Source: Rhizopus arrhizus (lineage: Eukaryota; Mucoromycota; Mucoromycetes; Mucorales; Rhizopodaceae). From it: 64,000 nucleotides of DNA. Shown here one piece after another: positions 22,085 through 62,087 of the stretch; the first letter of the stretch is position 1; each line of letters opens with the position of its first letter. Position numbers and translations under genes: made by a program. The DNA lies in assembly GCA_024220505.1 (NCBI GenBank), contig JAKZZE010000019.1:1-64000 (forward strand), written 5' to 3'. The notes beneath the pieces were generated by a model. The model was not told the origin of the DNA and searched no databases. It was given only the letters and a program-made list of their open reading frames with translations.

Positions 22085-22990
22085 TTAATTCTTACGATCT
22101 TCTATTATTATCATAGGATGTTTATGTTTTTTGTTTTTTCTGGTCAATTCCTCCATAACTGTATCTTCTTCTTCAAAAACAATATAATTAACTTCTAAAT
22201 CTTTAAGGTTTATATGCAATAGCTTATTTTGTAACTCATTCATATCATTTTAATTTTTATTCATCTTTATGTCATCATTAAATGCTATATGCAATTTACT
22301 TTTTGTTATTCGAAATTCAAAATTATCACAATGCCGTAACTTATAAAGATGTTATTCTTTAATTTTATAATCCTGCACTCATTGCCATATATTTTTTGGT
22401 AAGCATGATATTTTATTTTTGATACTTGGATGGCTGCTCTATTATTGTTAAAACTTTCAAACTTATTACCTAGTACACTAAATTCATTTTCAATGATAGA
22501 TCTGAAACTCCCAAAAACTTTCTTATAACGTAGTTCATTTATTGTTAATTTACTATCTTTTTCTTTTCCTGCAGAATACATAAAATGCATAGCTTTAAAT
22601 TCATATCCTAAATTTAATGCATTTTCTTTAAATTGATTTATAAAGCGTGGATATGCACCATCCATAGCCAAACAATCACCAATATGTAATTTATTATGTA
22701 AATTTGTTCTTAAAAACATTAAGCCGTCATTAGATTCACCACATTTTTCTGGTTCAGAAATAAAGATAAGCATTTTATTCATATCTGCAACAGTTTGTGT
22801 TCTTATACCTGGCTTCCTAAAGTTATATGAATGTAGCTTTATTCTTTCTGTATCGGGATTATAATATCTAGTTTTGGAATCATGCCTATCCAATTATTAA
22901 TGTGACATTTTTCAATCCTATGGGGCTTTATAATTTTGCAGCCAATAACATTATTTTTATATTTGAAAACAAATTTAATACATCCGTATT
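22085..22990 (-). pseudogene. DDE transposase (DDE_Tnp_4/Harbinger-like), left gene, unit A
   Basis: Reading leftward, there is a relic of LFSNIKIMLLAAKL followed by KNVTLII. After a frame lesion the frame is open from 22893 to 22306: DRHDSKTRYYNPD (first D), DCLAMDGAYPRF (second D) and FGSFRSIIENEFSVLGNKF (E). A C-terminal tail follows to about 22085, reached only through an in-frame stop near 22257. The D/D/E layout and the RSxIExxF segment fit the DDE superfamily endonucleases (PF13359-type) seen in early-diverging fungi. The family call is inference. It is head-to-head with the related gene at 24394. A frameshift in the catalytic IDGHD region and the stop make it non-functional. Confidence 0.7.
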
Positions 22991-36264: not shown

Positions 36265-36717
36265 TCACAACCACAGGATTTTAGGGTACAACCATGCAGA
36301 TAATCAGAGATCCAAGCTTAACTTTAGTCATAGGCCAAATTTTAGCGATAAGCCTATCCATAGGCATAGACATAGTGGGCTATGTGTGAAAATCACTTTG
36401 TGTGATTTATAGAGCAAATGGGGTGCACTTAGTGTTGGTTATCACTCCGCTTAACTTTAGTCATAGGCCAAATTTTAGCTATAAGCCTAGCCATAGGCAC
36501 AAAAATAGTGAGCTATGTGTAAAAATCGCTTTATCTCGTTTCTATGCCCAATGGGGTGCGCCTAGTGTTGGTTATCACTCCGAAAAGTCACCGGCCAGCA
36601 CTGAATTTCATATTTTTGCTATAGCCGTGACTCTAACTTTAGTTATCGTCAAGAAAAGTGCCCTAACCACAACTCTGAAATTAAGCGGGCAACCACAGGA
36701 TTTTGGGGTTTAACCAC
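36265..36717. repeat. Satellite block 5
   Basis: About 450 bp of satellite monomers end at GGGGTTTAACCA, directly joined to coding sequence of a CACTA accessory gene (CAGCAGCCTCC...). The junction marks where the left part of CACTA copy 1 was lost. Confidence 0.9.
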
Positions 36718-36850
36718 AGCAGCCTCCTCGGCAGCAACCTTCTGAGGTCAAAGAGAATAGGGCCTTGACCAGTATAATTTGAATTTAAAAGCTAAATTAA
36801 CATGTGCAAAATAATAACTAAATTTTTGTTTTACCCTTTTTGAAATATAG

Positions 36851-37616
36851 GCTTTCATATTGAAGTACTACAGAGAGCATCTGGTCCCTCGGGGTATCAC
36901 CTTTGACCTGAAGGAGGTCTTGCGCTACAAGCAAAACGCAAAGGTCAGAGATTTGCTTGTAGCAGCTGCCAAGAAGGAGCCATTTTCTGCTGGCATTACT
37001 GTTTCTGACATGCGCAGCATGGTCAGAAACAAATTCAACTACATGGTGAGAGAAAGTAAGGGGCTGACGGCTACGTCAGAAGAATCAACGCGTCGTAGTC
37101 GTGTGCATGCAGTAAGTAATTAATATTGAAAAATTGAAATATATAGTGTTTGAAGTACTTACATTACTTCTTTACATTAGAAGCTCGCCATGAGGCGAAA
37201 TGCTTACAATGCAGCCCCAGAGGAATTTGAAGCTCGTTTTCCTTTTGGAAAAAAGCTTCTGATAGCCGATTGGACCTCAGAGGAAGAAGATGGCCCTGAG
37301 GATGAACATGGTCCTGTGTTTGTGGTAAAAAGACCACTCTTTCGAAGTAAAGCAGTAAGTAGTATTTTTGTTATAGTATTTATTTTCTAATATACCTTTA
37401 ATTAATCTACAGGTGGACGAATTCCATGCTTCTCTTCAAAAAGCATGGAGAGATTCCTTGTCGAAAAAAGGCACCATCAATAGAACAAGAAGGGTGGTGG
37501 ACTACTTCGACAAGGAGTTTCCCACAAACCTTGACCATGAGGATTATCCCTCTTGGGCCTTTTCTTCTCCTGGCCTTGGCTTTTCCTCTTCTGCTGCTGC
37601 TAATCCTATGCAGTAA
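36851..37616 (+). CDS. CACTA accessory protein, copy 1 (5'-truncated)
   Basis: Exons 36851-37111, 37181-37354 and 37413-37616 have the same phases as copy 2, and the first two have the same lengths (261 and 174 nt). Read through, they give ILKYYREHLVPRGITFDL ... DMRSMVRNKFNYMV ... RRNAYNAAPEEFEARFPFG ... FPTNLDHEDYPSWAFS. Upstream, 36718-36770 is a Gln-rich piece that looks like the end of the missing first exon, cut off by satellite. The protein has no identified domain. Its partner is the convergent tnp2 gene, whose stop lies about 190 bp away. Without the N-terminal basic/polyQ part it is probably non-functional. Confidence 0.7.
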
Positions 37617-37803
37617 GCGTTTACTTTCTCTTTTCTCTTTCCCCCTCCTTTTTTTTTTTTTTTTTTGCTGCCTCTTTTGTTGTCTGTACAAATAGAATAA
37701 AAATTTCAAAAAAAAATAACAATAATAGTTATTGAATGATTCTTTAGTAAAATAAATAATAATAATAATAATAAAAGAATGTTTGAATAATTTAGCATAG
37801 TTG

Positions 37804-40628
37804 TTACATATAAATTCTTCTTGGCAGAGCGAGAGTAAGAAGATGGTTATCAACATATGGACATATAGCAACAGGGTTGAAAATCCTGTAAATTGGAAGT
37901 ATATTGTTGCTTGTAACTGGATCAAATTGATTCTTCCACACTTGGATGCCAGTACCATCAAAGGTGGGGAAATGTTGGGTCGCATGGCTGTACCAATTGA
38001 CGAATGCAAAATAATGAGTGGTATTGTTGAAGGAATGTGAAAAAAAATATGATATTTGGCCAATTCGTAGTTGGTTATTTACAATGGCTTGAATGTATGA
38101 TGATGATGAATGATTGTCTGATTGTTGGTAACGTTGTCCAAGCAAGTTAATTTTCTTAAATGATTGTACCATTGTACTAATTGTATTCATAATAGGTGTT
38201 TCATAGGTATCCATATAATAATTTTGTAGGGCTTCATAGTGTTGAGGGCATAATATTTGTTGTTTGTTGTTAATTTTTGAAGGAAGGGATTTTGGTGGCA
38301 GAGGCTCACTACCAGTAATTGTCAGGTTAAATAGACTTGGTCCGTCTATGAACTGAGCGTAATCAAATGGCGTTAGACCACTCTCGTCATTCGTAACTTC
38401 GCCTATTTCCCTTATAAAGTTGAGTAGTAGGAGCATGTCTTCGTTGTTGGTATTAATGAGTGTTGGTAATGAATGTATAAGATCTTGTGTATGGATTGTT
38501 TGTGTAAGCATAGTGACATAAGTGGTTTCGAAGCCTGTCTTGTAATTGATATTTATCTTTTTGACATCACCATTCAAGCGTTCAAAACCATAGAGCCAAA
38601 AGGCATAAGAGGGACCAAAGTCCAAAAAGCATTCTTTCAAATGCATGTGCATATGCATATTTGGTGTTATACTTGTTTTTCCATAAAGTTGAGCACAAGT
38701 CTTGCCAAAGGTCTTGAATAATGAATGTGCTGTGGGTATTTCTTCAATTGTGATCAAAGGACCAGTCACCAATCTTACTGCTTCTACATATCGCATCCAA
38801 TTGATGAAATGTTCACCGATTAGTCTTTGTTTTAACAGAAAAGGCGAAAGCACAACACACCACGTTCTCCATTCATCGGATTTCATATTGCTAAAAGTAC
38901 TTTCAATCTTGCCTTTTTTTTTTTTGTTTTTTTTTTATACAAAAAATTAGTGTTCAGAATTATCACATAATTAATTCTTTTATATTTGTTGCATACCTTT
39001 GGAGATTCTGCAGTACTGTGATGGAATAGCAATTGAAGCTGATTCATCAGCCATGGCTTTGAAATCAGCCGTAGAAAGAAGCCCGTGATCTACCCAAACT
39101 TCAACCATTCGTTTTGGCGTACCTAGAAATAAACTGTGCATAGGATCAACTGTTGTTAATCTTACAACATCAAAATATTCTAGTCGGTGAAGTTCACTCC
39201 ATTTACTTCCTGTGTCCGTCTGCAGGGTTCTTTGTTGTGTAATGTGAGTGGCATTCAGCCAAGCATATGCTTCTTGGCGCTGCTGGGTATTGTTTCGCAG
39301 AATCCAATGCTCATCGTCAAAGTCTGAAAAATCTGGCTTCGTTGAATTTGCACCAGTACTGATTCGCGAAAACACAGTGGAACACTTGTTGCAGGCTTTG
39401 TGCGCGGATTGACCCATGAATCCAGCTACCTTACGAGCTGCTGGTATATCACAGTTAACGGACATCAAAGCAACACGTACCATCTCACCGTTTCTGTTCT
39501 GGTACGTTGGCATCATCATACCTCCGTACAAGGTATTCAGCTCTGCAATCATTGGTCGCAAGAAATTTTGGAGCTGGTCATCCGTGGGCTCGCCAGGCCC
39601 AGGAATCATACCAACCAGGATGATGTTGGAAACCTTCATCCTGGAACCCCTTGGAAGGTTGTTGATAGTGAGATATACACCACCGCAAGAGTAATGCATA
39701 CCATCACTAGGTTGAAACCAATCAACGTTCAATGACACCATTAATGATCGTCTTTTATTCACAAATGGCTCCCCAGCTGAGTCGACCATCTCATTCCAGA
39801 CTCTACCATCATAAATGTCATACAACACACCTTCCTCCACATATCGACCTCTCCACTGTTCAATTTCTGTTTCAAAGTTCGGACGGACAAAGAACTTCTT
39901 CAACGTTTCGACAATTGAGTTGTACGGGAACTCAAGGACGGGCTTCAGGCTGCTGCCAACAAAAAGTGAATTACCACATGGGCGCTCTTGTCTGTGGGGG
40001 TTGTTTGCAAACCTGACAAAAGGGCATAGTCGGGTATGCAAACTTCCCGTGTCATAAACACTTCTACAAAGAGAACAGACAAGGAAACGGGAGACACCAC
40101 TACTGGCAGAGGAATAATTGACCATGGCACGAGCAGTGGAGATCTTTGTAGGAATCTCCATGCCATGGCCAAGGGCACGAACAAAGAAAGAAAGAAAGGC
40201 CAACAGTTCTTCACCGGCTTCAACAGAAAGGTGCTTTGCTTGAAAAAGCACAAGGTAAAGGACCAGGAGATACTCCAGTTGTTGGTCGTTGGTCATTTCT
40301 TCTTCCATGTCGATATCCATGTCAGCATCAAGGTCGAATTCTAAATTTGTTTAATAAAAAAAAGGGTGTGTTTATAAATATACCTTCAAACGTGCTTTTT
40401 TCGGTAGAACTGGTGGGTTGCTCGAAGATATTTTCTAATCTTCTTTGTCTCAAAACTATTTTAATTGCACTTTAGTCTTTCTGCATTTCTTTAAAAAAAA
40501 GTACCTTCTCCAACTTTGTCAATACGCTTATGAGTATTAGCGGTTTTCTTGGCAATCATTTTGAATCCTTCAGGACATTTGCTGCATTTGGTGCATTGGC
40601 ATTTAACTTTGTTGTTAGTGGCGTTCAT
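37804..40628 (-). CDS. Tnp2-type CACTA transposase, copy 1, four exons, intact by inspection
   Basis: The exons, 5' to 3' on the minus strand, are 40628-40505, 40455-40384, 40340-38997 and 38912-37804. This totals 2649 nt, or 882 residues, with every junction in frame. The N-terminus has a CxC...C...C cluster (VKCQCTKCSKCPEGF) and THKRID. Next come a Cys/His region (CSLC ... C), the NVDWFQP motif (first catalytic Asp, probable), LVGMIPGPGEPTDD, MSVNCDIPAARK (second Asp, probable), HKACNKC, DPMHSLFLGTPKRM, and in the last exon GFERLNG (Glu, probable). DxMHxLFLGT and IPGPxEP are characteristic of the tnp2/Plavaka-like transposases of the CACTA superfamily. It would cut and join element ends. 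The match to copy 2 in all exon boundaries strongly supports the model. Confidence 0.87.
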
Positions 40629-40639
40629 TTCAAAAAAAA

Positions 40640-41413
40640 AAAATATTCAGGATTTAGTAGAGGAATAAGATAGAAAAAAATGCGTGATAAAAAAAAACTA
40701 AAGCAAATATACTAAATTTGGATGTCGGTTCCTAAACAGTAACAGTTTTACATGTACTAAAGAAATGTTTTTTTTTTTTTCCCTTGTTTTGTTTCAGAGA
40801 ACATATTTAACATTGAGGATACAAAAGATATAAAAGAAAACTCAACAATGGTTAAAATGTAAGTTTGTAACAACAAAAATAACAACCAAGTCTAATGTCG
40901 GTTTCTTTTTTTTTTTTTTTTACATTAGGAATTCCTAATGGGTCACATTCGGATGACGAACATGAACCTCATGAGCAAAGTTGTTCTTTCCAACACGATA
41001 AAACTATAAGAATATCAAACTTATATTGTTGCTTGTTGTTGAAAAGTTTTTTTGATAAAGGAAGTTGGCAATGTTAACATCTCTAATGGCTAATGGCTAA
41101 TGGCAAATTACACCCATGTGCAAACATAAAGTAAGTAATGAACTAATATAAGCTTAAAAACATATATTCTATTATGTTATCTGTCATAAAAAATAATAAA
41201 GCACTTTATTTACTTGAAAAACAAAAAACTGTGCATGTATCTATTAATTATCATTGCCTTGTAACAAGATGTTAACAAAGCTTCTTTTTTTTTTATTCTT
41301 TTTAGAATATACACGTATTCTTTTGTTATAATGTAAAAGCATTTGTATTTTTATAAAACATGTTTACTGTTAGGTTATTGTTTTCATTTGAATAAGTAAC
41401 ATTTTATTGCTAT

Positions 41414-41456
<43 letters not shown>

Positions 41457-41925
41457 ATTCTTCAGCTTCTTTTTTTTTTTCCCAAACGCAACTATTTTGT
41501 TAAGTTCTGTTACACGCTTCAAATGAACTAAGCTAAAGATCACAGACTGCCTTCCTAATATGTATTCTTTTGATCAAAATAATCACAATGTGTTTTTGTT
41601 TTCCGCATTTTGCCCTCAAAAATAAAAAAAAAGAAAATATCGGTCTTTCAACGATAGAGGAGAACAGGCTTTCCAAAAAGAGACTATTTGAAAAAAAAAA
41701 GACACTTTTTTAAAACATGAATAACTCTATGAATACTTACACCACAAAAAAAATAATAAAATTATTAAATTTCTTTATTTTTTTCGCACCTAAATCTTTT
41801 TTCGAAATTCAAAAAGGTGCAATACAGAGCATTTTAATTTTTTTCGTTTAATCAAAGTTATTTAAATCGTTGAAATTTTGATGTTAGAAATGACTGCCAA
41901 TGACTGATAACGCTGAAAATCACCA
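40640..41925. other. CACTA copy 1 right arm
   Basis: This T-tract-rich arm is shared with copies X and 2. It contains ACATTAGGAATTCCTAATGG at about 40923. The open frame after it (PNGSHSDDEHEPHEQSC, ending about 41077) looks like a small exon preceded by a polyT-ACATTAG acceptor. No complete gene could be built from it. Confidence 0.5.
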
Positions 41926-41951
41926 ATTATTTGCAGTGCACTGCAAATAAT
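41926..41951. repeat. 26-bp perfect palindrome made of two abutting CACTA termini
   Basis: ATTATTTGCAGTG (right end of copy 1, 41926-41938) is followed directly by its reverse complement CACTGCAAATAAT (left end of copy X, 41939-41951). The outer bases do not extend the symmetry. The arrangement arises because copy X inserted exactly at the end of copy 1. Confidence 0.9.
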
Positions 41952-42282
41952 AGTGTAAATTGGGTAACAAATCGTTTACCAATCTTGCGAAATAATTTAC
42001 AATCGTGTACAATCAGGTAAGAGATTTATCCACGCACAGCCTCCTGTCTCTGCCACAAATCGTGTAAGTTATTGTTCGCCCTTTGGTTATGTGATGGTGC
42101 AAGATTTGTGGCCAACACAGGAGACTGTTGGGAGACTTTTTCGTTAACTGATCTTGCAAGGTGGACCTTTCATCAGTTACGTTGTGGCTCTTGTTTATTA
42201 TCAATTTGACATCTAATGGTGCTTGGCAACCAATCACGCTTTGTAAAACACTACTTTAGTTGTCTTTTTGCTCTTTTATAAA

Positions 42283-42385
42283 CCACTCATATTGCTTTAT
42301 ATACTTCTTTATGAACCACTTATATTGCTTTATATACTTCTTTATCGACCATTCATACTGCAATAAATATTGCTTTATATACACA
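42283..42385. repeat. Subterminal minisatellite, about 33-bp unit x 3
   Basis: CCACTCATATTGC, CCACTTATATTGC and CCATTCATACTGC head successive about 33-bp units containing TTTATATACTTCTTTAT. The matching array in copy 2 has one extra unit (45485-45620). Subterminal repeats of this kind are typical transposase-binding regions in CACTA elements. Confidence 0.75.
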
Positions 42386-42717
42386 AAAAAATAGGGATTT
42401 TGTTTATAAAAAATAGCTTTATTTTTATTTGAATAAAATAATAATAACAAAATATGATATTTCTTTGCTCGTAGCGTTTTAACTGTGTACTTGACTTACC
42501 TAATGTCACCAGAATAGCAGCATCTAATCTAAAAATACATCAATTAATCTCGTGGAACTCAAAAAGTTCTCAAAAGAAAAAAAAAAAGCAAGCTCAAGGA
42601 TTCTAGGATTCAAAGACACAAGGACCAGGGCACTTAAAGCAAAAGATGGAAGTACATCAGTACTTAAGAACCAAAGTAAAAACCAGGAAGGAAACAGAAA
42701 GAGGCCAAAGCAGAGCA

Positions 42718-42975
42718 GCATTTATCTATAATAATTATTAGCCATCGTATATATATCGTAAAAGCAATAGTACCTTTCTTTAGATAGACAAGAGGAAGAA
42801 AACTTGCTAAGCTTTTACCAATAAGTAAAAAAAAGGAAGCAGCAGGCATCTATAATAATTATTAGCTATTGAGTATATGTAGCAAAAGTAATAGTACCTT
42901 GCTTTGGATGGACCATAAAAAAAAAAGAAAAAAAAAAGATACCAGTCAAGCTTATACCAACAAATAAAAGAAGAA
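42718..42975. repeat. Subterminal direct repeats, about 115-bp unit x 2
   Basis: Each unit contains CATCTATAATAATTATTAG, AGTAATAGTACCTT and an AAGCTT(A)TACCAA segment followed by an A-rich stretch. Copy 2 carries about three units at 45970-46320. On the minus strand the repeated AAAGGTACTA could also be read as splice donors, so a series of mini-exons is an alternative. Confidence 0.65.
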
Positions 42976-44592
42976 GCAACTACAATTCTGGGAAAGAGAC
43001 TTTATAAAGACTATTTAAACCATAAAAAAAGCAATCGATACATCTTTACTAAAGTACAAGTACCATTAGAATAGGAATAGAATACATATGTAATATTAAG
43101 AACTTACCTTTTATAAAAAAGAGAAGAAAAAAAAAGAAAAAAAAGAGAAGTGCTTTTTTGTAGCTTTATTTTACCAATGTTACACTTATTCACTGTCTAT
43201 CTATATTAGAAAACAAAAACAATTGCTTTTCATGTAGTTTACATTTAATGGTATCCCAAAAGATAACTTATACATTGCTTGAACAAGTTTTATTACTGGA
43301 ATGCAATATGTTTAGGAGGAAGGTTATTATTTTATTTTATTTTATTTTTTTTACTTGAAATAAAAAAAAAAGTCGGTATCTTAACAAATTATAGCAGAAA
43401 AACAACTTCTTTTTTTTTTCTCCCTAGTTTTGTTTCATGGAATACACTAGATGCCAAAGGCATAAAACAAAAAAAAAGGAAAGCTCAAGCACTGGTCAAA
43501 TGTAAGCTTATAAAAAAGTAATAACAACCAAGTCTAATGTCGGTTTCTTTTTTTTTTTTTTTACATTAGGAATTCCTAATGGGACACATTCGGATGACGA
43601 ACATGAGCCACATGAGCAAAGTTGTTCGTTTTAACACGATAAAACTATAAGAATATCAAACTTATATTACTGCTTGTTGTTAAAAAGCCCTTTTTGATAA
43701 AGAAAGTTGACAATGTTAACATCTCTAATGGCTGATGGCTAATGGCTAATTGCAAATTACACCCATCTGCAAATACAAAGTAAGTAATGAACTAATATAA
43801 GCTTAAAAACATATATTCTTTTGTATTATTTGTCATAAAAAATAATAAAGTAATCTCTTTACTTGAAACCAAAAAATTGTGCTTGTATTTGTTAATTATA
43901 ACTGCCTTGCAACAAAATGTGAGCAGAGCTTCTTTACTTTTTATTCTTTTGAGAATATACACGTATTCTTTTGTTATAATGTAAAAGCATTTGTATTTTT
44001 ATAAAACATATTTGTTCTTAGATTATTGTTTTCATTTGAATAAGGAATCTTTTATTGCTATGCTCTTTTTTTTTTCACTAGGTCTTTTTTTAACTTTGTC
44101 TTTTTTTTTTACTTTTAATCTTTCAGCTTCTTTTTTTTTTTTTTTTACTAAACGCAACTATTTTGTTACGCCCTGTTACACATTGCTAATGAGCTACGCT
44201 AAAGATCACAGATTGCCTTCCTAATATGTATTCTTCTGTACAAAATAATCGCACGGTGCTTTTGATTTCCGCATTTTGCCCTCAAAAATAAAAAAAAGAA
44301 AATATCGGTCTTTAAACAATGGAGAGAAATACGCTTTCCAAAAAAAGATCGTTTGTAAAAAAAAAACATTTCTTTAAAAATGTGAATAACTCCATGAATA
44401 TTTACCCTACAAATAAAATAATAACATCGTTAAATTTCTTTATTTTTTTCGCATCTAAATCTTTTTCAAAATTCGAAAATGATCAATGCAGCAAGATTTA
44501 ATTTTTTTCACGAAAAAAAGTAGCAATTTGTTACCCAAACGAAGAGCAATCTTGCGCAATCCGGTACCTAATTGGAACGATTATTTGCAGTG

Positions 44593-44643
44593 GTGAACCT
44601 CCCGAATGATAGGCAGACGTTCTAACCATTTGCACTATCTCCA
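44593..44643 (-). pseudogene. tRNA-like 5' fragment (Asp-like) cut by CACTA insertion
   Basis: Read on the minus strand from 44643: GGAGATAGTGCAAATGG, then TTAGAAC (D-arm and A-box-like) and CTGCCTATCATTCGGG (anticodon-arm-like, anticodon position ATC). The text then runs GGAGGTTC and stops at the GTG duplication next to copy X. The D-arm and anticodon-arm pattern resembles tRNA-Asp with several mismatches. The 3' half is not present nearby. Confidence 0.6.
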
Positions 44644-44650
44644 CATACCT

Positions 44651-45116
44651 GGGGATGTAGCTCAGGTTAAAGATTTTATATTTTTATTGGATAATATGCA
44701 GGCGACAAATATGTCATTATTGCTATCCACAGTGATAAACTGGAAAGCATACAAACTATTATGGGGGAGGAGGGAAAGGAAGAAAGAAGGAACGGATTAT
44801 TATTGGGGGGAGCTGGAACCAGAGACGAAGACTTGAGGCAGAACAGAACGCGCTTCATTAAGCCCGGGCTGGGCATCCCGGCACCGCGGACCAACAACGC
44901 TCGACAAACAAACAACGCAGACCAACCGACCAGAACAGCAGTGGCGTTAAAACCAGTATTATCATCAAGAGCGCACACCAAAGTCCCCCGAAAGGGAAGG
45001 AAAGTAGACAGGTGCTCAGCTGCTACGCAACGCAACACACAGGCGGAGAAACAAAAGTGCTTGATGCACTCGGCAAACAGAACATGTAGAGGGGCAGGGA
45101 AGGGATAGATCCGAAG
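44651..45116. repeat. GC-rich 466-bp repeat with a tRNA-Ala-like head, unit 1
   Basis: The segment begins GGGGATGTAGCTCAGG, identical to the first 15 bases expected of tRNA-Ala, then leaves the tRNA pattern. It is much more GC-rich than its surroundings and ends GGGATAGATCCGAAG. It is nearly identical to 54199-54663. Open frames exist on both strands (44761-45108 plus; 45038-44676 minus) but neither has a recognisable domain or intact equivalents in both copies. Confidence 0.8.
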
Positions 45117-45138
45117 ATCCTATCAGGGGTCGAACTTG
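45117..45138 (-). pseudogene. tRNA-like T-arm fragment left of CACTA copy 2
   Basis: On the minus strand it reads CAAGTTCGACCCCTGATAGG. AGTTCGACCCC is a good B-box. Joined across copy 2 (one TTG removed) to 54141-54191 it gives a continuous tRNA-like sequence with A-box and B-box. The acceptor stem does not pair convincingly, so the target was a pseudo-tRNA or a tRNA-derived repeat. Confidence 0.6.
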
Positions 45139-45484
45139 CACTGCAAATAATCGTGCAAACTCTGCACATTGTTAATTTTTAGCAATATGCTTTTCTGTTT
45201 AACGATGCCAAAAGCTGTGATTGAATGGGTATTTATGCCGACGTCAATATCGGCACCCTTTAAGGACCTAAATGTCTGTCAATATATTCTGCGTCTCTGT
45301 ATGGTGCCGATATTAACGAAAATGATGATCCATAGCTATAAGTAGATTTATACAGACCCAATTGTCGTTCTGCGAAGGCGTCTCTCTTGTTAGCTGCTTT
45401 ACATAGTCTATTCTACGTTATAAATAATTTGGCAACCAATGATACTTTTTAAATCATTACTTTATTTGTCTTTTTACTCTTTAT

Positions 45485-45620
45485 AAACCACTCATATTGC
45501 CTTATATACTTCTTTATGAACCACTCATATTGCCTTATATATTTCTTTATAAACCACTTATATTGCTTTATATACTTCTTTATCGACCATTCATATTGCA
45601 ATAAATTTTGCTTTATATAT
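45485..45620. repeat. Subterminal minisatellite, about 33-bp unit x 4
   Basis: These are the same units as at 42283-42385 with one extra copy. They start CCACTCATATTGCC (twice), CCACTTATATTGC and CCATTCATATTGC. Confidence 0.75.
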
Positions 45621-45969
45621 ACAAAAAAATAGGGATTTTGTTTATAAAAAATAGCTTTTTTTTATTTGAATAAAATAATAATAACAATACATAGTATTTC
45701 TTTGCTTGTAGCATTTTAGCAGTGTGCTTGACTTACCTAATGTCACCAGAATAGCAGCATCTAATCTAAAAATACATCAACTAGTCTCGTGGAACTCAAA
45801 AAGTTCTCAAAAGAAAAAAAAAAAAAAAAAGCCAAGCTCAAGGATTCAAAGACACAAGGACTCAAAGGCACAAGGACCTGGGTAATTAAAGCAAAAGAAG
45901 GAAATACATCAGTACTTAAGAACCAAAGTAAAAGCCAGGAAAGAAACAGAAAGAGGCCAAAGCAGAGCA

Positions 45970-46320
45970 ACATTCATCTACAATAGATGTTAAATATCGT
46001 GTATATATAATAAAAGCAATAGTACCTTTCTTTAGATAGACCATGGGAAAAAAACTAGCTAAGCGTATACTCACAAGTAAAAAAAGCAGCAGACATCTAT
46101 AATAATTATTAGCTATGAAGGATATGTAATAAAAGTAATAGTACCTTTCTTTAGATGGGCTAAGAGAAAAACCTTGCTAAGCTTTACCAACAAGTAAAAA
46201 AAAAGGAAGCAGAACGCATCTATAATAAATATTAGTTATGGAGTATATAGTAAAAGTAATAGTACCTTGCTTTAGACGAACCACGAGATAAAAGAAGAAA
46301 AAAAGACACCAGCCAAGCTT
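45970..46320. repeat. Subterminal direct repeats, about 115-bp unit x 3
   Basis: CATCTACAATAGATG, CATCTATAATAATTATTAG and CATCTATAATAAATATTAG head three units, each with AATAGTACCTT and a GAAAAAA-rich end. The last unit is interrupted by the Tc1 element at 46324 and resumes at 47975. Confidence 0.65.
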
Positions 46321-46323
46321 ATA

Positions 46324-47972
46324 CACTAGGTGAAAAAATAGGGACAACCTACCCTAAAATAATTTTTAACTTTTTTTTTTTCTCCTCCACTCCGTACGAC
46401 ATCCAAGCCATGCCTATAGAGCGTAGCCTTAGGTAGTGAGTATTACGTTTCCCACATATAAAACTGATCAGGATAACATATGGCGGAAGAAAAGAGGAAA
46501 TAGTCGCAATAATTTTATAATCGTTATATTATAAAATGAGTAGTATTTATTTAATAACGAGTAAATCTCCCTTTTGATTTGATTACTGCTGCTATGCGAT
46601 CAGGCATGCTGTCAATGTAACTTCTACAAACATCTTTATCTAGCTTGTTCCATTCAAAGTCAACTCGTTCCCATTGCCCGTCGATGTTTCTGGCCTTTCG
46701 TTCATAAAGGCTTAACCTAAGTTTCAGCAAGTGCCACATATGCTCTATAGGATTCAGATCCGGACATTTAGGTGGCCAATCGTTAATGTACTGGACCTTG
46801 TTTTGTTGGAGCCATGACATTGTTGATTTGGACTTGTGCTTTGGGTCGTTATCTTGTTGAAGGTAAATGGTGCGCTTGTTCATACCATAGTACTTCAGCG
46901 TTTTCATGTAAGTTGTTCCAAGAATATGCTGGTACACCAAGGAGTCCATGGTACCATCGTATACCTGGCACGCATATCCTGATCACTCACTAGTTATACA
47001 TCCCCACATTACCAATTTGCCGCCACCATGCTTCATTGAAAGATCTATGTGGTGTGGACGAAGGACATCACCAGGCTGGGTCCAATAGTATCTGCAGCCA
47101 TCAGATCCCCAAATGTTGATCTTCGTTTCATCGGAGAACACTACTTGATGCCACAGTTGTATAGACCAGTTTTGATACTTCTTTGCCCATGCTAACCTCT
47201 GCTTGCGGTGGTTATTAGGTAAAAGAGGCTGCTTCTTTTTACGCCTAGAATAAAAATCCATTGATACAAGGACGTTTATTACTGAACGGTAAGTCATAGA
47301 ATACCCAAGTTGTATGAGCATCCGATGTACGTCCTTGGCTGTCTTTAGGGCTCCTTTAATCAGTAATACCATGATATATTCCTTCGTAGCAGATGACACA
47401 AGTGTATGTCTACCACGTGTTGCGGGTACCATTGGCCCAAATAACTTGTTTCTATATCTCCTAACTGTCTTGGGATGGATACCAAATTTACCAACAATAT
47501 CCTTTGGGCTTCTATTGCTCATAAGTGCAGACTTGATGCTGTCTTGCGTGTCTTGAGGTAAAGCGCGAAGCATAAGTAAGAGAAATTTCGCAGGAAGTAA
47601 GAAGAATATAACGAAAAAAAAAGAATATATGAATGAAAGAAAACAGCATTCATTTTATATTATTAATTATAGGAACGTGCATAGCTAATATTAGAATCGG
47701 TTTGCATTTTAATTGTAGCTGATATTCCAGGTCAAACTAGAAGAGTACGAAATATGGTCTAAAACTGAGCTGTGGAGTATCTAAAATTCGGCCAATTATA
47801 TATGCATTACTCCCTCATTTTCCATAGTTGGCTCATCATATTTTGATGAAATACTTCATACATTAACCTCGGTTTAACATATTGCTAGCGTCATGAGGCG
47901 ACCTTCTCTTAATGCTATATGCTGCATGAAATGAAATTTTCGAAAAGGTTGTCCCTATTTTTTCACCTAGTG
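46324..47972 (-). mobile_element. Tc1/mariner element inserted in CACTA copy 2
   Basis: The inverted repeats, including the TA target duplication, are 46322-46350 (TACACTAGGTG...) and 47946-47974 (...CACCTAGTGTA), 29 bp and perfect. Flanks AAGCTTA and CCAACAAGTAAAAG join across one TA to give the uninterrupted text seen in copy X at about 42950 (CAAGCTTATACCAACAAA), an empty paralogous site. The single gene is on the minus strand. Confidence 0.93.
46551..47573 (-). pseudogene. Tc1/mariner transposase with one in-frame TGA
   Basis: The 341-codon frame starts MLRALPQDTQDSIKSAL. A paired-type helix-turn-helix (DIVGKFGIHPKTVRRYR, then a second HTH around 75-105) leads to the DDE core: VVFSDETKINIWG (D148), LQQDNDPKHKS (D241) and CPDLNPIEHMW (E277). 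The spacing between the second D and the E is 35 residues by my count, one more than in Tc1 itself. A single TGA at codon 197, after WGCITSE, interrupts the frame. GGA at that codon would be a one-base difference. Apart from that codon the length and motifs are those of a full Tc1-family transposase (about 340 residues). It may be recently inactivated, or a base-call error. Confidence 0.9.
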
Positions 47973-48486
47973 TACCAACAAGTAAAAGAAGAAGCAACTA
48001 TAATCCTGGGAAAAAGACTTTATAAAGACAATTTAAACTATAAAGAAAGCAGCCAACACAACTTTACTAAAGTACAAGTACCATTAGAGCAATAATAGAG
48101 TATATATAATATTAAGAACTTACCTTTCAGAAAAGATTTTTTTTTAAAAAAAAAAGGAAAAAAAAAAGGGAAAAAAAAGTACTTTTTTATAGCTTCATTT
48201 TACAAGTGTTACAATTATTCAGTATTAGTAAATTCTAATAACCATGAAAGCTCGTTTCAACTGCATTTTTTAACACAGTTCAGCTATTAAAATATTCAAA
48301 AAGCTTGTTTATATATTGTTAGACTTATTCTTTATTTAAATTTAACATCTTCAACCCTAATAGTGTTTTTTTTTTTCTTTTTTTTTAAAAAAAAAAAAAA
48401 AAAAAGAGTACAAAATAAACTGAAGAATATAAAAACAATGTAGCACATTCTTCTTTTTTCTTCTTCTTTATACTTTATTTTAAAAA
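47973..48486. other. Remainder of CACTA copy 2 left arm and upstream region of the accessory gene
   Basis: The subterminal unit resumes, followed by A/T tracts (for example 48389-48405) and a pyrimidine-rich run (TTCTTCTTCTTTATAC) just before the ATG at 48487. No other gene is seen. Confidence 0.55.
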
Positions 48487-49763
48487 ATGTCTAGACGCGT
48501 CGCTACACCCATCAACGTTCCCAGCAATGCCCCAAAAAGGGCAAGAGTTTCTTCAAATATCGCTGGATCATCATCCACTGTTGTTCCTTCTTCCTCTTCT
48601 CTTTTCCCTGCTCCTGCTCCTGTTCCCGCTCCTGCTCCTGTTCCCGCTTCTGCTCCTGTTCCCGTTTCTGCTCCTGTGGCCGCTCCTGTTGCAACATTTG
48701 GTAGCCATACTGGTGCAGAGGCTATTGGAGCAGCCTCTAGTTTCACACCAGAGATGATGGCTGCCCAAATGCAGTTTTTTGCTCAAATGTGGCAACAGCA
48801 ACAGCAGCAGCAGCAGCAGCAACATTCAGTTCAACAGCCACAGCAAGGGCAGCAGTATGTTTCTGTGGCTGAGATCAACAAGATCAAAAAGCAGTGTAGT
48901 GTAAGCTAAAAATTAAAGTATCAATTAGTAAATTCAATTTAGTAACTTTATTTCTTAATTTTTTCACTTACATTATAGGATCACATAGCTGATCACTACC
49001 GTGAATACTTGGTTGGCCGTGGCATCAAGTTTGATACGCTCAAGTCCATCACCGACAAGGCCAACAGAAAAGTAAAAAATCTGTTGCGCGATGAAGTCAG
49101 GAAGCACCAACGCTTCAATTGCCTGACTGATTCGCAGATATTCACCATGATTAGAAGTAAGTTCTATTACATGGTGGATAAGGCAAATGGGAAAGCTGTG
49201 GCGACACCAACGTCAGCCTGCCGCAGCCGCGTAAATGCAGTAAGTACTTGATATTCAAAAAATCATAATATAAAATGCCTATAATACTTATATCAATACT
49301 TTATGATAGAAACTCCTTAACAGGAGGATTGCTTACAACGCCAACGCAGCAGCATACCACGCCCGGTTCCCATTTGCCGAAAAGATCTTGACGGTTGCTT
49401 GGACCTCTGATGAGGAGGATGGCCCAGAAGATGAAGATGGCCGTACATTTATTGTCAAGCGGCCATCATTCAGAAGTGAAAGAGTAAGTATAACATATCA
49501 ATAAACCTCTTTTTCTAATATACCTTAATTGCCTACAGGTAGTGGAATTCCACAAAGAGCTGCAGAAAGGGCACAAAGACTTGTTAAAGAAAAAGGGGGC
49601 TCCACCAGCTATTAGAAGAAGAATAGAAAATGTTGAGGTGGAGTTCCCTTATAAGCTCGACCATGAGTATTACCCTTCCTGGGCTTTTTCTTCCCCTGCT
49701 CTTGGCTTTCCAACTTCTGTTTCTGGTTCTTCCTCCTTTGCCGCCGTCAACCCAATGCCATAG
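48487..49763 (+). CDS. CACTA accessory protein, copy 2, four exons, full-length
   Basis: Exons 48487-48900, 48979-49239, 49310-49483 and 49539-49763 (414, 261, 174 and 225 nt, all phase 0) give 357 residues. The N-terminus is basic (RRVATP ... PKRAR). A Pro/Ala/Val tract (PAPAPVPAPAPVPA) spans about residues 39-75 and a poly-Gln run about 100-115. A folded-looking region follows: DHIADHYREYLVGRGIKF, FTMIRSKFYYMVDK, RFPFAEKILTVAWTSDEEDG and PYKLDHEYYPSWAFS. I do not recognise a family. By position it is the second gene of the element, like the DNA-binding helper of plant CACTA elements, but that role is only inferred. Its 3' end lies about 190 bp from the end of the convergent tnp2 gene. Conservation of exon structure in copy 1 supports that it is real. 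Confidence 0.8.
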
Positions 49764-49953
49764 GCATCCACTTTTTTTTTTTCCTTTCCTTTTTGTTCCT
49801 TGTTTTGTTGTCGTTTTTCAAATTGAATAAACATTTGTTAAAAAAAAAAAAGCTAGTCTATTGAATGATTCTTTAGTAAAATATGTAATAAAATAAAAAT
49901 AATAATAATAATATCGATAGATAAATGAATGATTTAATGGTTTTGCATATTTG

Positions 49954-52822
49954 TTACATATAAATTTTTCTTGGAAGAGAGAGAGTGAGGATGTGGTTAT
50001 CGATGTATGATTTGACAGCAACAGGGTTATAAATTCGATGAATTGGAAGTATGCTAAGTCTTGACACTGGTTCATATTGATTCTTCCACACTTGGATGCC
50101 AGTACCATCGAAGGTGGGGAAATGCTGGGTCGCATGGCTGTACCAATTGACAAATGCAAAGTAATGAGTCATATTGTTAAATGAATGTGTGAAAAGATAT
50201 GATATTTGACCAATGCGCAGTTGATTGTCGACAATGGCCTGAATGAATGATGAAGGTGATGATGAAAAGGAATTGTTAATTGCTGGCTGATAAAGTTGTC
50301 CAAGCAAAGTGATATTTTTAAATGAATGTATAGTAGTATCGATGTATGTATTAGTTGCATAGGTGTAGATATAATAGGCTTTTAAAGCTTCATAATGTTC
50401 ATGGCATATAAGGTGTGTTTTTTTGTTGTATTTTAAAGGATAGGAGGTTGGTGGCAGAGGCTCACTACCAGTAATCGTCGAATTGAATAAACTAGGCCCG
50501 TCTATGAAACGAGAGTAGTCAAATGGCGTTAAACCACTCTCATCACTCGTAACCTCGCCTATCTTTTCTATAGATTTCACTAATAGGAGCATGTCATTGT
50601 TGGTTGTGTTAATGAATGAATGTAATGAGTGTATGAGGTCTTGTGTATGAACATTTTGGATAAACATAATTGCATAGGTTGTTTCGAAGCCTGTCTTAAA
50701 ATTAATGTTTATATTTTTTATGTTACCATTAAGGCGTTCGAAACCATAAAGCCAAAAGGCATAAGAAGGACCAAAGTCCAAAAAGCATTCCTTGAGATGC
50801 ATATGCATGTGCATGTTTGGTGTTGCCATAGAGTTTCCATATAGTCGAACACAAGTCTTGCCAAAATTTTTAAAGAGTGAATGGGCTATGTCTATGTCTT
50901 CATTTGTAACAAGGGGCCCAGTGATCAATTTCACCGCTTCAACGTACAGCATCCAATTGTCAAAGTGCTCTCTTGCCAGTTTCTGTTTCAAGAGAAATGG
51001 CGACAGCACAACGCACCACGTTCTCCACTCGTCTGATTTCATGTTACTGAAACAACTTTCAATCTTGGCTTTTTTTTTTTAAAAAAAAAATAATTGTTAG
51101 CTTGAACATGAATTAAAGTTTTTTATATTTGTTACATACATCTAGATATCTTGCAGTATTGAGAAGGAATGATAACTGAGCTAGATTCATCAGCCATTGC
51201 CTTGAAATCATTTACAGTGAGCAAACCACGGCCTTCCCAAACTTCAATCATTCTTTTTGGTGTACCAAGAAACAAGTTGTGCATTGGATCCACAGCTGTC
51301 AATCTCACCACATCAAAATAACAAAGTCTATGGAGCTCACTCCATTTACTCCCCGTGCTCGTCTGTAAGGCTCTTTGCTGAGTGATGTGAGTTGCATTCA
51401 GCCAGTCAAATGCTTCTTGTCTTTGTTGAATACTGTCCCTCATTATCCAGTGTTCATCATCAAAGTTGGAAAAATCAGGCTTGGATGAATTCACACCAGT
51501 ACTGATTCTAGGAAAGACAGTTGAGCATTTGTTACAAGCCTTATGAGCTGACTGCCCCATAAACCCGGCTACTTTACGCGCTGCAGGTATGTCGCAATTG
51601 ACTGACATTAAAGCAACACGAACAAGCATACCATTTGGGCATTGATAGGTGGGTATAACCACACCATCGTACAGGACAATCAACTCATCCACCATTGGCC
51701 GCAAGAAGTTTTGAATTTGGTCATCCGTGGGCTCGCCAGGACCAGGAATCATACCAACAAGAATAACGTTGGAAGTCTTCATCCTTGAACTTCTTGGGAG
51801 ATTGTTGATAGTGAGGTACACACCACCACAAGAATAGTGCATACCGTCACTAGGCTGAAACCAGTCCACATTCAACGACACCATCAACGACCTTTCTTTG
51901 TTGACAAATGGCTGAGCATTTGAGTCGGCAAGCTGACTCCAAACTCTACCATCATAGATGTCGTAAAGAACATCCTCTTCCACCGATCTACTTCTCCACT
52001 GCTCAATTTGGAACTCGAAGGCAGGACGAGCAAAAAACTTCTTCAACGTTTCCAAAATTGAGTTGTAAGGGTACTCAAGAGCAGGCTTGACGGTGCTTCC
52101 AACAAAAAGAGGATTACCACATGGTTGTTCTTGGCGGTGAGGGTTGTTTGCAAACCTGACATAAGAGCATTGTCGGGCATGCAAACTTCCCGTGGTGTAA
52201 ACGCTTCTGCAAAGGGAACAGACAAGAAAACGAGAAACACCACTGCTGGCAGACGAGTAGTTGACCATGACACGAGCCGTGGAGATCTTTGTTGGTATCT
52301 CCATGTCATGGCCAAGAGCACGAACAAAGAAAGAGAGAAAGGCCAACAATTCTTCACCAGCTTGTACAGAGAGGTACTTTGCTTGAAAAAGAACCACGTA
52401 GAGCACCAAAAGATGCTTGAGCTGTTCTTCGTGGCTCAATTCCTCCTCTCCATCAACATTCATGTGGTCTAACAAATTGTAAAATACAGTTCAATAAATA
52501 AATCCTTTCTAATGTAAAATGCTTTGTCGACTGAAAATATACCTTCAAAGGTGGTATGCTCACTTTCGTTTTCAAGGACGGCTGTTGGTTGTTGCATGAC
52601 TTCGGCTACTTGTCTTCTGGACTCTATTTTTTTTTTTTTTTTTTTTTTACATTAACACGAGTGCGTTTATACGAAAAAATAAAAACTATAACCTCTTCCT
52701 CTGAATCTGTCCAGACGCTTATGAGTAAGAACAGTTCTCTTTGCAAGTCTTCTAAATCCACCGGGATGCATGCTGCATTCGGTACAAGTGCAAGCGATTT
52801 TAATGTTGTTGATGTTGTTCAT
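49954..52822 (-). CDS. Tnp2-type CACTA transposase, copy 2, four exons, intact by inspection
   Basis: The exons, 5' to 3', are 52822-52693, 52623-52543, 52468-51140 and 51068-49954, summing to 2655 nt or 884 residues with all joins in frame. The N-terminal Cys cluster is IACTCTECSMHPGGF, then THKRLDRF. A second Cys region begins CSLCRSVY (C154, C157). Probable catalytic residues are D272 (LNVDWFQP), D366 (VNCDIPAARK) and E624 (YGFERLNG), with IPGPGEPTDD and DPMHNLFLGTPKRM between them. These are the hallmark motifs of tnp2/Plavaka-like CACTA transposases. The last exon also carries HMHMHLKECFLDFGPSYAF. The protein would act in the nucleus on the CACTGCAAATAAT termini. It is a diverged paralogue of the copy 1 gene, with both frames kept open. 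Confidence 0.88.
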
Positions 52823-52859
52823 TTTGAAGAATTTAGTATTTTGTAAAGAAATAAAGAAG

Positions 52860-54125
52860 GAAAAAAAAAAATGCGCCTGATAAAAAACGAGTAGTAAATT
52901 TGCAAAAACAGTAGGTGCTTAAACAATGAAATAAGGCAGTAAAACAACTTCTTTTTTTTTTCCCTTGTTTTGTTTCATGGAATACTCTAGATGCCAAAGG
53001 CACAAAACAAAAAAAAGGAAAGCTCAAGCACTGGTCAAATGTAAGCTTATAAAAAAGTAATAACAACCAAGTCTAATGTCGGTTTCTTTTTTTTTTTTTT
53101 TTACATTAGGAATTCCTAATGGGACACATTCGGATGACGAACATGAGCCACATGAGCAAAGTTGTTCGTTTTAACACGATAAAACTATAAGAATATCAAA
53201 CTTATATTGTTGCTTGTTGTTGAAAAGCCCTTTTTGATAAAGGAAGTTGGCAATGTTAACATCTCTAATGGCTAATGGCTAATGGCAAATTACACCCATG
53301 TGCAAACATAAAGTAAGTAATGAACTAATATAAGCTTAAAAACATATATTCTATTATGTTATCTGTCATAAAAAATAATAAAGCACTTTATTTACTTGAA
53401 AAACAAAAAACTGTGCATGTATCTATTAATTATCATTGCCTTGTAACAAGATGTTAACAAAGCTTCTTTTTTTTTTATTCTTTTTAGAATATACACGTAT
53501 TCTTTTGTTATAATGTAAAAGCATTTGTATTTTTATAAAACATGTTTACTGTTAGGTTATTGTTTTCATTTGAATAAGTAACATTTTATTGCTATGCTCT
53601 TTTTTTTTTTTTTTTTTTTTTTTTTCACTAGGTCTTTTTTTTTAACTTTGTCTTTTTTTTTTTACTTTTAATTTTTCAGCTTCTTTTTTTTTCCCAAACG
53701 CAACTATTTTGTTACATTCTGTTACACGTTTCTAATGAGCTAAGCTAAAAAGCACAGACTGCCTTCCTAATATGTATTCTTCTGATCAAAATAATCACAA
53801 TGTGTTTTTGTTTTCCGCATTTTGCCCTCAAAAATAAAAAAAAGAAGATATCGGTCTTTCAACGATAGAGGAGAACAAGCTTTCCAAAAAAAGATCATCT
53901 GTAAAAAAAAAGACATTTTTTTAAAACGTGAATAACTTTATGAATATTTACCTTACAATGAAAAAAATAACATTACTTAATTTCTTTATTTTTTTCGCAT
54001 CTAAATCATTTTTCATATTTCGAAAATGACCAATACAGCAAGATATATTGTTTTTTTAAAAAAAAACTTTAAAATCTGTGGACCTATGACTGTCACCGAT
54101 ATCAGAATTCTACGTCAAAGGCGCA
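52860..54125. other. CACTA copy 2 right arm
   Basis: This arm is shared with 40640-41925 and 43320-44580. It has T-runs, the ATTAGGAATTCCTAAT palindrome at about 53105 and a possible small exon after it. No complete gene is seen. Confidence 0.5.
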
Positions 54126-54140
54126 ACATTATTTGCAGTG

Positions 54141-54191
54141 TTGCGACCACACCAATAATAGTCAGACGTTCTACCGACTGAGCTACATCCA
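54141..54191 (-). pseudogene. tRNA-like 5' fragment (Asn-like) right of CACTA copy 2
   Basis: On the minus strand from 54191 it reads GGATGTAGCTCAGTCGG, then TAGAACGTCTGACTATTATT (A-box and anticodon-arm-like, anticodon position ATT), GGTGTGGTCG and CAA at the TTG duplication. It is 51 nt, the same length as the fragment at 44593-44643, and aligns with it (shared GTCAGACGTTCTA-type core). Its missing T-arm is at 45117-45138. Confidence 0.65.
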
Positions 54192-54198
54192 CATCCCC

Positions 54199-54663
54199 GG
54201 GGATGTAGCTCAGGTTAAAGATTTTATATTTTATTGGATAATTGCAGGCGACAAATATGTCATTATTGCTATCCACAGTGATAAACTGGAAAGCATACAA
54301 ACTATTATGGGGGAGGAGGGAAAGGAAGAAAGAAGGAACGGATTATTATTGGGGGGAGCTGGAACCAGAGACGAAGACTTGAGGCAGGAACAGAACGCGC
54401 TTCATTAAGCCCGGGCTGGGCATCCCGGCACCGCGGACCAACAACGCTCGACAAGCAACCGACGCAGACCAACCGACCAGAACAGCAGTGGCGTTAAAAC
54501 CAGTATTATCGTCAAGAGCGCACACCAAAGTCCCCCGAAAGGGAAGGAAAGTAGACAGATGCTCAGCTGCTACACAACGCAACACACAGGCGGAGAAACA
54601 AAAGTGCTTGATGCACTCGGCAAACAGAACATGTAGAGGGGCAGGGAAGGGATAGATCCGAAG
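54199..54663. repeat. GC-rich 465-bp repeat with a tRNA-Ala-like head, unit 2
   Basis: Near-identical to 44651-45116. It starts GGGGATGTAGCTCAGG and ends GATAGATCCGAAG, immediately followed by the intact tRNA-Ala, whose first 15 bases repeat the head of the unit. Confidence 0.8.
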
Positions 54664-54736
54664 GGGGATGTAGCTCAAATGGTAGAGCGCTCGCTTAGCA
54701 TGCGAGAGGCACTGGGATCGACGCCCAGCTTCTCCA
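54664..54736 (+). tRNA. tRNA-Ala (anticodon AGC)
   Basis: The sequence begins GGGGATGTAGCTC, with the A-box in TAGCTCAAATGG. The anticodon arm has stem CTCGC, loop TTAGCAT and stem GCGAG, so the anticodon is AGC, read as alanine. The T-arm has stem CTGGG, loop ATCGACG and stem CCCAG. The acceptor pairs GGGGATG with CTTCTCC, with one mismatch and one G-U, followed by discriminator A. There is no intron. A run of eight T (54741-54748) follows as the RNA polymerase III terminator. It is the only clear host-type gene in the window. Confidence 0.92.
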
Positions 54737-61879: not shown

Positions 61880-62087
61880 TTTTGTGTAACTTTGTTATTA
61901 TGCTTTGTGGTGATACGATTTTTGTATTGTTCTGTATTAAGGTTTTTGTTTGATTGGTGTGTGTGTGTGTGTGTTTTTTTTTTTTGATTTTTTTTTTTTT
62001 TTGTTTGTTTGTTTCAACTACCCCTCCCTTCCTCCATGTGATTTGATAAAATACATTGGTAGTGTGATTTTGTTGTGTTTTTGCGAA
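61880..62087 (-). other. 208-bp spacer between RT-RNaseH and integrase ORFs
   Basis: On the plus strand the spacer contains a GT microsatellite (about 61957-61973) and T-runs. On the coding strand these are CA- and A-rich leader-like sequence before the integrase ATG. No convincing GT-AG intron restores one continuous pol frame. Confidence 0.55.

Follow-up and report, generated by a model that had tools for sequence, protein, structure and literature searches.

Introduction

The closest described parallels to the locus reported here are retroelements that insert at a set distance from genes transcribed by Pol III. According to the accessible sections of PMC5911963, Ty3 takes a fixed position upstream of Pol III genes via TFIIIB, and Ty3, Tj1 and other Ty3/gypsy elements are LTR retroelements that lie within about 1–10 bp of the transcription start, whereas the distance found here is ~57 bp. 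For social amoebae, the available parts of PMC5911963 and PMC5633606 describe two non-LTR elements, TRE5, which lies 40–54 bp upstream of tRNA genes in one orientation and has a protein that binds TFIIIB, and NLTR-B, which lies 39–64 bp upstream of them. A different arrangement is described for the Dada DNA transposons, which are tied to tRNA and snRNA genes (PMC3706591, PMC8869645); in the available text of PMC3706591, the authors contrast this insertion within the gene with that of retrotransposons, which insert at a distance. Near tRNA and rRNA genes, de novo insertions of the DNA transposons Mu and P resemble random loci in the accessible results of PMC7337890. In Rhizopus, the available portion of a study of R. 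oryzae (PMC2699053) reports that Ty3/gypsy elements co-localise with tRNA genes, and En/Spm-type elements, given there as 0.68% of the assembly, appear in that portion without any link to tRNA.

The literature found in our search, from whose scope preprints and most subscription papers fell out, reports no fixed tRNA distance for CACTA/EnSpm (CMC) elements or for any other cut-and-paste element. Relative to that literature, fixed-distance Pol III targeting by a cut-and-paste element would be new, and it is otherwise described for retrotransposons. Here we analyze a family of CACTA elements for which a preliminary description had proposed insertion into tRNA genes at one point of the T-arm. By membership these elements belong with CACTA transposons, and in targeting they appear to resemble TRE5.

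Results

CACTA elements in the window

The window is the whole stretch of DNA that was analyzed, 64,000 nucleotides long (C11:1-64000), and the assembly searched comprises 50,257,186 bases in 41 contigs. The CACTA copies of the window and their open reading frames (ORFs) are as follows.

36714..41938, minus strand: copy 1, a left-truncated CACTA copy with a TGGT-type right end at 41938
38980-40350 and 37804-38934, minus strand: tnp2 ORFs of copy 1, with the Transposase_21 match in 38980-40350
41939..44592, plus strand: copy X, a short CACTA copy of 2654 bp with left end AGTG and right end CGTT
45139..54140, minus strand: copy 2, a CACTA copy of 9002 bp, CACTGC...GCAGTG, with left end CGTG and right end GTTG
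46324..47973, minus strand: Mariner/Tc-like insertion within copy 2, with ORFs 46551-46982 (DDE_3) and 46983-47654 (HTH_Tnp_Tc3_2)
49954..51078, minus strand: second transposase ORF of copy 2, without a Pfam match
51132..52490, minus strand: tnp2 ORF of copy 2, Pfam Transposase_21

The Transposase_21 (tnp2) domain is found in ORFs of both copy 1 and copy 2 (Pfam, E 3.2e-16 and 8.8e-18). For the copy 2 tnp2 ORF, a Rhizopus delemar protein matches at 95% identity and many further named matches also come from Rhizopus, so the DNA is very likely from a Rhizopus; Mucor, Rhizomucor and Phycomyces are also represented among its relatives. No retroelement protein was found among the scanned larger ORFs of copies 1 and 2, for which Pfam gives only tnp2 and the nested mariner-type transposase. 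Copy 1 matches L053:183-7511 at 96.7% over about 5.28 kb and lacks the first 2059 bp of the L053 copy. Copy X is flanked by GTG on both sides and abuts the end of copy 1 at 41938 with 0 bp between them. Short copies elsewhere in the genome show 94–98% identity across stretches of 0.9–1.7 kb. Copy 2 has the target-site duplication (TSD) TTG on both sides (45136-45138 and 54141-54143), and its empty site is preserved at locus L005, where an uninterrupted version matches the joined flanks at 98.6% over 219 bp, gap-free, across the joined site. An uninterrupted version of the copy 2 stretch itself, without the Mariner/Tc-like insertion, is present at L057.

Genome-wide, the exact terminus CACTGCAAATAAT occurs at 545 ends (270 forward and 275 reverse) while the reversed-pattern control gives 0. 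The terminus is present at both element ends, and by the letters behind it the elements fall into three main subfamilies, whose paired ends are CGTT/AGTG, GTTG/CGTG and TGGT/TGGA. A perfect 3-bp TSD flanks 16 of 27 paired copies, including both complete copies of the window. Four of the 11 copies without a perfect TSD (C1:1395080, C3:1468172, C3:1779599 and C4:685587) also have no tRNA by eye at 57 bp in either of the flanks examined. No sequence consensus at the cut was seen by eye in the 17 flanks inspected. With their Transposase_21 ORF, CACTG termini and 3-bp TSD, the CACTGCAAATAAT elements are CACTA (EnSpm, tnp2) DNA transposons.

Other repetitive sequence was observed in the same window. 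About 240-36650 is occupied by large arrays of tandem-like repeats, spaced at 133, 289 and 422 bp, an ORF at 22306-22893 has a weak DDE_Tnp_4 match under the curated cut-off, and a long ORF at 59465-61894, in which integrase zinc-binding and rve core domains are found, apparently belongs to an LTR retrotransposon.

tRNA genes recognised beside element ends start ~57 bp away

Outward flanks were read from 79 ends, comprising all those listed on C1, C2 and C3, 8 of the 11 on C4, five in the window, and two each on C9 and C17. Ends that adjoin another exact end (26 of the 79) were excluded from tests of external flanks, leaving 53 external flanks, at least eight of which open by eye with a variant or sister-family terminus and were retained. 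ARAGORN identifies a tRNA in seven of these 53 flanks (Gln, Ser, Asp, Lys, Val, Ser and Val), and all seven are whole, start at flank position 56–59, that is 55–58 bp off, and point away from the element. Since these genes lie whole beyond the element, one point of the T-arm does not stand as an insertion rule. Strict A-box matches are concentrated in the same region, with 15 at flank positions 61–70, and no other 10-bp bin out to 250 contains more than five (52 flanks, one of the overlapping ends C17:313319 and C17:313332 having been dropped). Over the window and the examined loci, a non-random sample mostly chosen for ends, ARAGORN reports 10 tRNAs, of which seven have an end 55–58 bp upstream; the three without one are a Ser tRNA at L054, an Ala tRNA at L005 and the Ala tRNA of the window.

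The genome-wide patterns give the same distance. A B-box is found 96–126 bp beyond 41 ends, where base composition predicts about 0.04 by chance, and the reversed pattern gives 0, as does a B-box shifted 100 bp outward (196–226 bp) across the genome. On the opposite strand the B-box is matched twice, in both cases by palindromic B-boxes of ends already among the 41. Seven of the 41 ends are located on C1-C3, and ARAGORN reports a tRNA at five of these, while the sequences at C2:719192 and C3:1748138 resemble decayed tRNAs by eye. When an A-box was permitted anywhere 50–80 bp out, 31 ends were recovered, and 30 of them place the tRNA start 54–59 bp off (median 57), the single outlier giving 50 bp; at least two of the 31 (C3:1682398 and C35:278541) face, by eye, a tRNA-like repeat head and not a tRNA gene. 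Together the A-box and B-box support 60 different ends, 12 of which are common to both lists.

The association was also counted from the tRNA side, using 63 tRNAs that were those scored among 2878 candidates and were selected regardless of transposons. At least 16 of the 63 have an exact end 50–59 bp upstream (mean 56.7), most of these ends having come from the A-box and B-box lists, whose ranges allow ~43 to 75 bp; the chance expectation is about 0.003 of 63 tRNAs within a 10-bp range. In the unrestricted list of ends, which is complete for C1-C5, four of the 15 tRNAs listed there have an end, at 56–59 bp. The ARAGORN, A-box, B-box and tRNA-side counts strongly support the broader proposal that this CACTA family targets tRNA genes.

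The majority of the 545 ends are unmatched to a tRNA by the strict patterns. Distal ends and those internal to stacks cannot match, old or truncated tRNAs are missed, and some insertions may lie elsewhere. A search for 5S rRNA genes as targets gave 0 matches, a weak and uninformative test with a motif unconfirmed in this genome.

Two further observations concern the sequence next to tRNA genes. Several recurrent spacers of ~50 bp, many ending in CA, lie directly upstream of different tRNAs and may be the termini of LTR elements whose targets are tRNA starts. Separately, a repeat beginning TGACAGTTGC or TGACAGTTGCTAATATG starts 52–54 bp from the CACTA end at C1:95743, C1:2466620 and C4:685587, where a tRNA is expected, and the TGACAGTTGC repeat may be an element that entered the start of the tRNA later.

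A SINE-like repeat at tRNA-Ala accounts for the T-arm appearance

The two insertion points of the window lie within repeated sequence beside a tRNA-Ala gene, and the features on either side of copy 2 are as follows.

44593..44650: spacer of 58 bp from copy X to the first tRNA-Ala 5' copy, containing an Asp-like head piece (minus strand)
44651..44666, plus strand: first partial tRNA-Ala 5' copy, 14–16 nt, GGGGATGTAGCTCAGG, the same letters that open the intact gene at 54664; putatively left behind by insertion of SINE-like repeat 1
44667..45116, minus strand: body of SINE-like repeat 1, a dispersed repeat, with the head boundary taken from comparison with 54215-54663
45117..45138, minus strand: tRNA-like head of SINE-like repeat 1, B-box side, cut by copy 2
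54141..54198, minus strand: spacer of 58 bp from copy 2 to the tRNA-Ala 5' copy, which is the remainder of the Asn-like head of SINE-like repeat 1
54199..54214, plus strand: second partial tRNA-Ala 5' copy
54215..54663, minus strand: SINE-like repeat 2, headless
54664..54736, plus strand: intact tRNA-Ala with AGC anticodon (ARAGORN; Rfam 54.4 bits)

As first described, tRNA-like stretches do adjoin the element ends at 44592, 45138 and 54140, and the insertion points do correspond, with the next GGGGATGTAGCTCAG, which is the tRNA-Ala 5' end, exactly 58 bp off in both cases (44651 and 54199). The flanking Asp-like and Asn-like pieces are not recognised as tRNA genes. Within the window ARAGORN and Rfam at its gathering score find only one tRNA, the intact tRNA-Ala, and the flanking pieces are instead heads of the SINE-like repeat. 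By eye this head has an A-box and a B-box, and the uninterrupted Asn-like piece at L005 and L049 goes unreported by Rfam at E up to 0.5. In the window the repeat measures ~530 bp, with the tRNA-like piece as its head and a body of ~450 bp, and at least 66 pieces genome-wide match the flank 44593-45138, which makes this flank a dispersed repeat in its own right. The concern that the flanks could belong to one repeat was thus justified for the window, but the tRNA association survives genome-wide.

The intact tRNA-Ala at 54664 opens with the sequence GGGGATGTAGCTCA, which recurs at 44651 and 54199 and represents a long target duplication of the SINE-like repeat. Such an arrangement would be expected had the repeat entered the tRNA-Ala start and duplicated 14 nt there, keeping the gene whole. 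At L005 the repeat head and an intact tRNA-Ala are present and copy 2 is absent. The SINE head and the tRNA stand head-to-head, which brings the T-arm of the head to the position 57 bp upstream of the tRNA and explains the T-arm appearance. A tRNA-like repeat head is present by eye at the insertion point in about 10 of the 60 supported ends, and the others lie in other sequence. The feature common to the two window sites and most other recognised sites is the distance to the downstream tRNA 5' end.

The SINE-like repeat also shows tandem re-insertions (window 44651-45138 and 54141-54663; L005:1511-2052), and breaks after ~18 nt, similar to the SINE-like insertion, were observed in other tRNAs (C1:2912796, Asp, and C3:1541637).

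Stacking, orientation and a sister family

Many ends are joined back to back, forming 74 junctions that account for 148 of the 545 ends, and the junction of copy 1 with copy X is one of these, with a gap of 0. In the 50 junctions listed the gaps measure 0–8 bp (mean 3.24, SD 1.53), though 0–30 bp was permitted. An element that lands ~57 bp from a tRNA and duplicates 3 bp would leave a gap of 3 bp plus the difference of the two landing distances, which matches the pattern and would follow from the reuse of one spot by later copies.

The elements are also oriented. A non-facing tail (AGTG, CGTG or TGGA) is present in only three of the 41 B-box ends (binomial p about 1e-8), compared with 36 of the 79 ends of the flank sample. 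In copies 1 and 2 of the window and at L040, L052, L053 and L056, the transposase has its 5' side at the facing-type end (CGTT, GTTG or TGGT), so it is mostly the transposase-5' end that is turned towards the tRNA gene.

A sister CACTA family with the terminus ATTRKGTGCAGTG has 206 ends (control 1). A B-box lies at the same distance from 11 of them. All 11 are GGG-type ends, with no ATG-type end among them, although both types are represented among the 28 ends listed with letters. In the unrestricted list, sister ends lie 55–57 bp upstream of three of the 63 listed tRNAs. At L005 a sister end is located 57 bp from a tRNA-Ala 5' copy across a spacer unlike those of the window. The distance is thus common to the two CACTA families here.

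Discussion

What places a CACTA element near a tRNA gene, such that distance, tRNA direction, orientation bias, TSDs, empty site, junction gaps and the distance of the sister family come out as they do? We propose, with a probability of roughly 0.8, that these CACTA elements insert upstream of tRNA genes at a distance of 54–59 bp (median 57), that in most cases they turn the transposase-5' end to the gene, and that this is most likely due to a transposase tethered to TFIIIB. The transposase would dock on this Pol III initiation factor at the tRNA gene, and integration at the upstream edge of TFIIIB would then fall ~57 bp from the tRNA start. By analogy with the retroelements that use it, the contact would be TFIIIB, and not a nucleosome edge or some other Pol III factor, and the transposase would be the protein that makes it. 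It also seems likely, at a somewhat lower level of confidence, that a cut-and-paste lineage comprising two CACTA families docks on the Pol III initiation complex under a rule of distance and orientation, not of sequence, and that reuse of the spot builds stacked, time-ordered archives.

The upstream window of the kind known from Ty3 and TRE5 is seen here in 30 of 31 A-box ends, at 54–59 bp. TRE5 and NLTR-B, as described in the available parts of their sources, are copy-and-paste retroelements, whereas the elements here have a cut-and-paste transposase, a 3-bp TSD and a narrower window. The contrast with Dada is of another sort. The accessible descriptions place Dada inside the gene, in family-specific sequences and with a TSD of 6–7 bp, whereas the tnp2 elements here lie outside the gene, beside many kinds of tRNA that are whole and 55–58 bp off, and duplicate 3 bp.

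An alternative hypothesis is that chromatin sets the position without contact with TFIIIB, the relevant edge at tRNA genes being that of the nucleosome-free region or that of the -1 nucleosome. This would fit the same distances, and other DNA transposons favor open chromatin in the available results of PMC7337890; however, a spread of ~2 bp together with the orientation bias would seem tighter than open chromatin alone predicts, and we regard this as improbable. Less probable still is a preference for sequences in the repeats that sit beside tRNAs, such as LTR ends and SINE heads, in which case the distance would be inherited from those repeats. Many spacers do recur next to different tRNAs, and Ty3-type elements co-localise with tRNA genes in the R. 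oryzae survey as far as its available portion goes (PMC2699053), but the spacers are of many unrelated types that all measure 54–59 bp, and the stack junctions place new copies by older ends and not at a fixed sequence.

Could the transposase instead recognise the T-arm or B-box sequence of the tRNA and cut there, in the manner of Dada? At both window sites the cut does fall within the T-arm of a tRNA-like piece, and by eye such pieces contain about 10 of the 60 supported ends. About 50 of the 60 lie elsewhere, however, the neighboring tRNAs are whole and 55–58 bp off, and the L005 spacer is unrelated, which makes recognition of this sequence very unlikely; the intact tRNAs in the flanks rule out T-arm targeting as a general rule. 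Finally, although the flank in the window belongs to a dispersed repeat, a composite of element, spacer and tRNA copied around the genome is hardly credible given Gln, Ser, Asp, Lys and Val genes with differing spacers, three subfamilies plus a sister family, and separate TSDs, and this variety of tRNAs and spacers, with the separate TSDs, rules out a single carried-along repeat.

The window can be read as a sequence of hits on one tRNA-Ala gene, probably beginning with copy 1 and followed by copy X at -58, insertion of SINE-like repeat 1 into the tRNA start, insertion of copy 2 at -58 within the head of that repeat, and finally SINE-like repeat 2.

If the proposal is true, the safe-haven strategy at Pol III genes would be open to DNA transposons and not only to retrotransposons, and a DDE transposase would have a targeting system that is guided by protein rather than by sequence. 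The stacks at tRNA genes would record the order of insertion, such that the competition of element families for one spot could be read from one genome.
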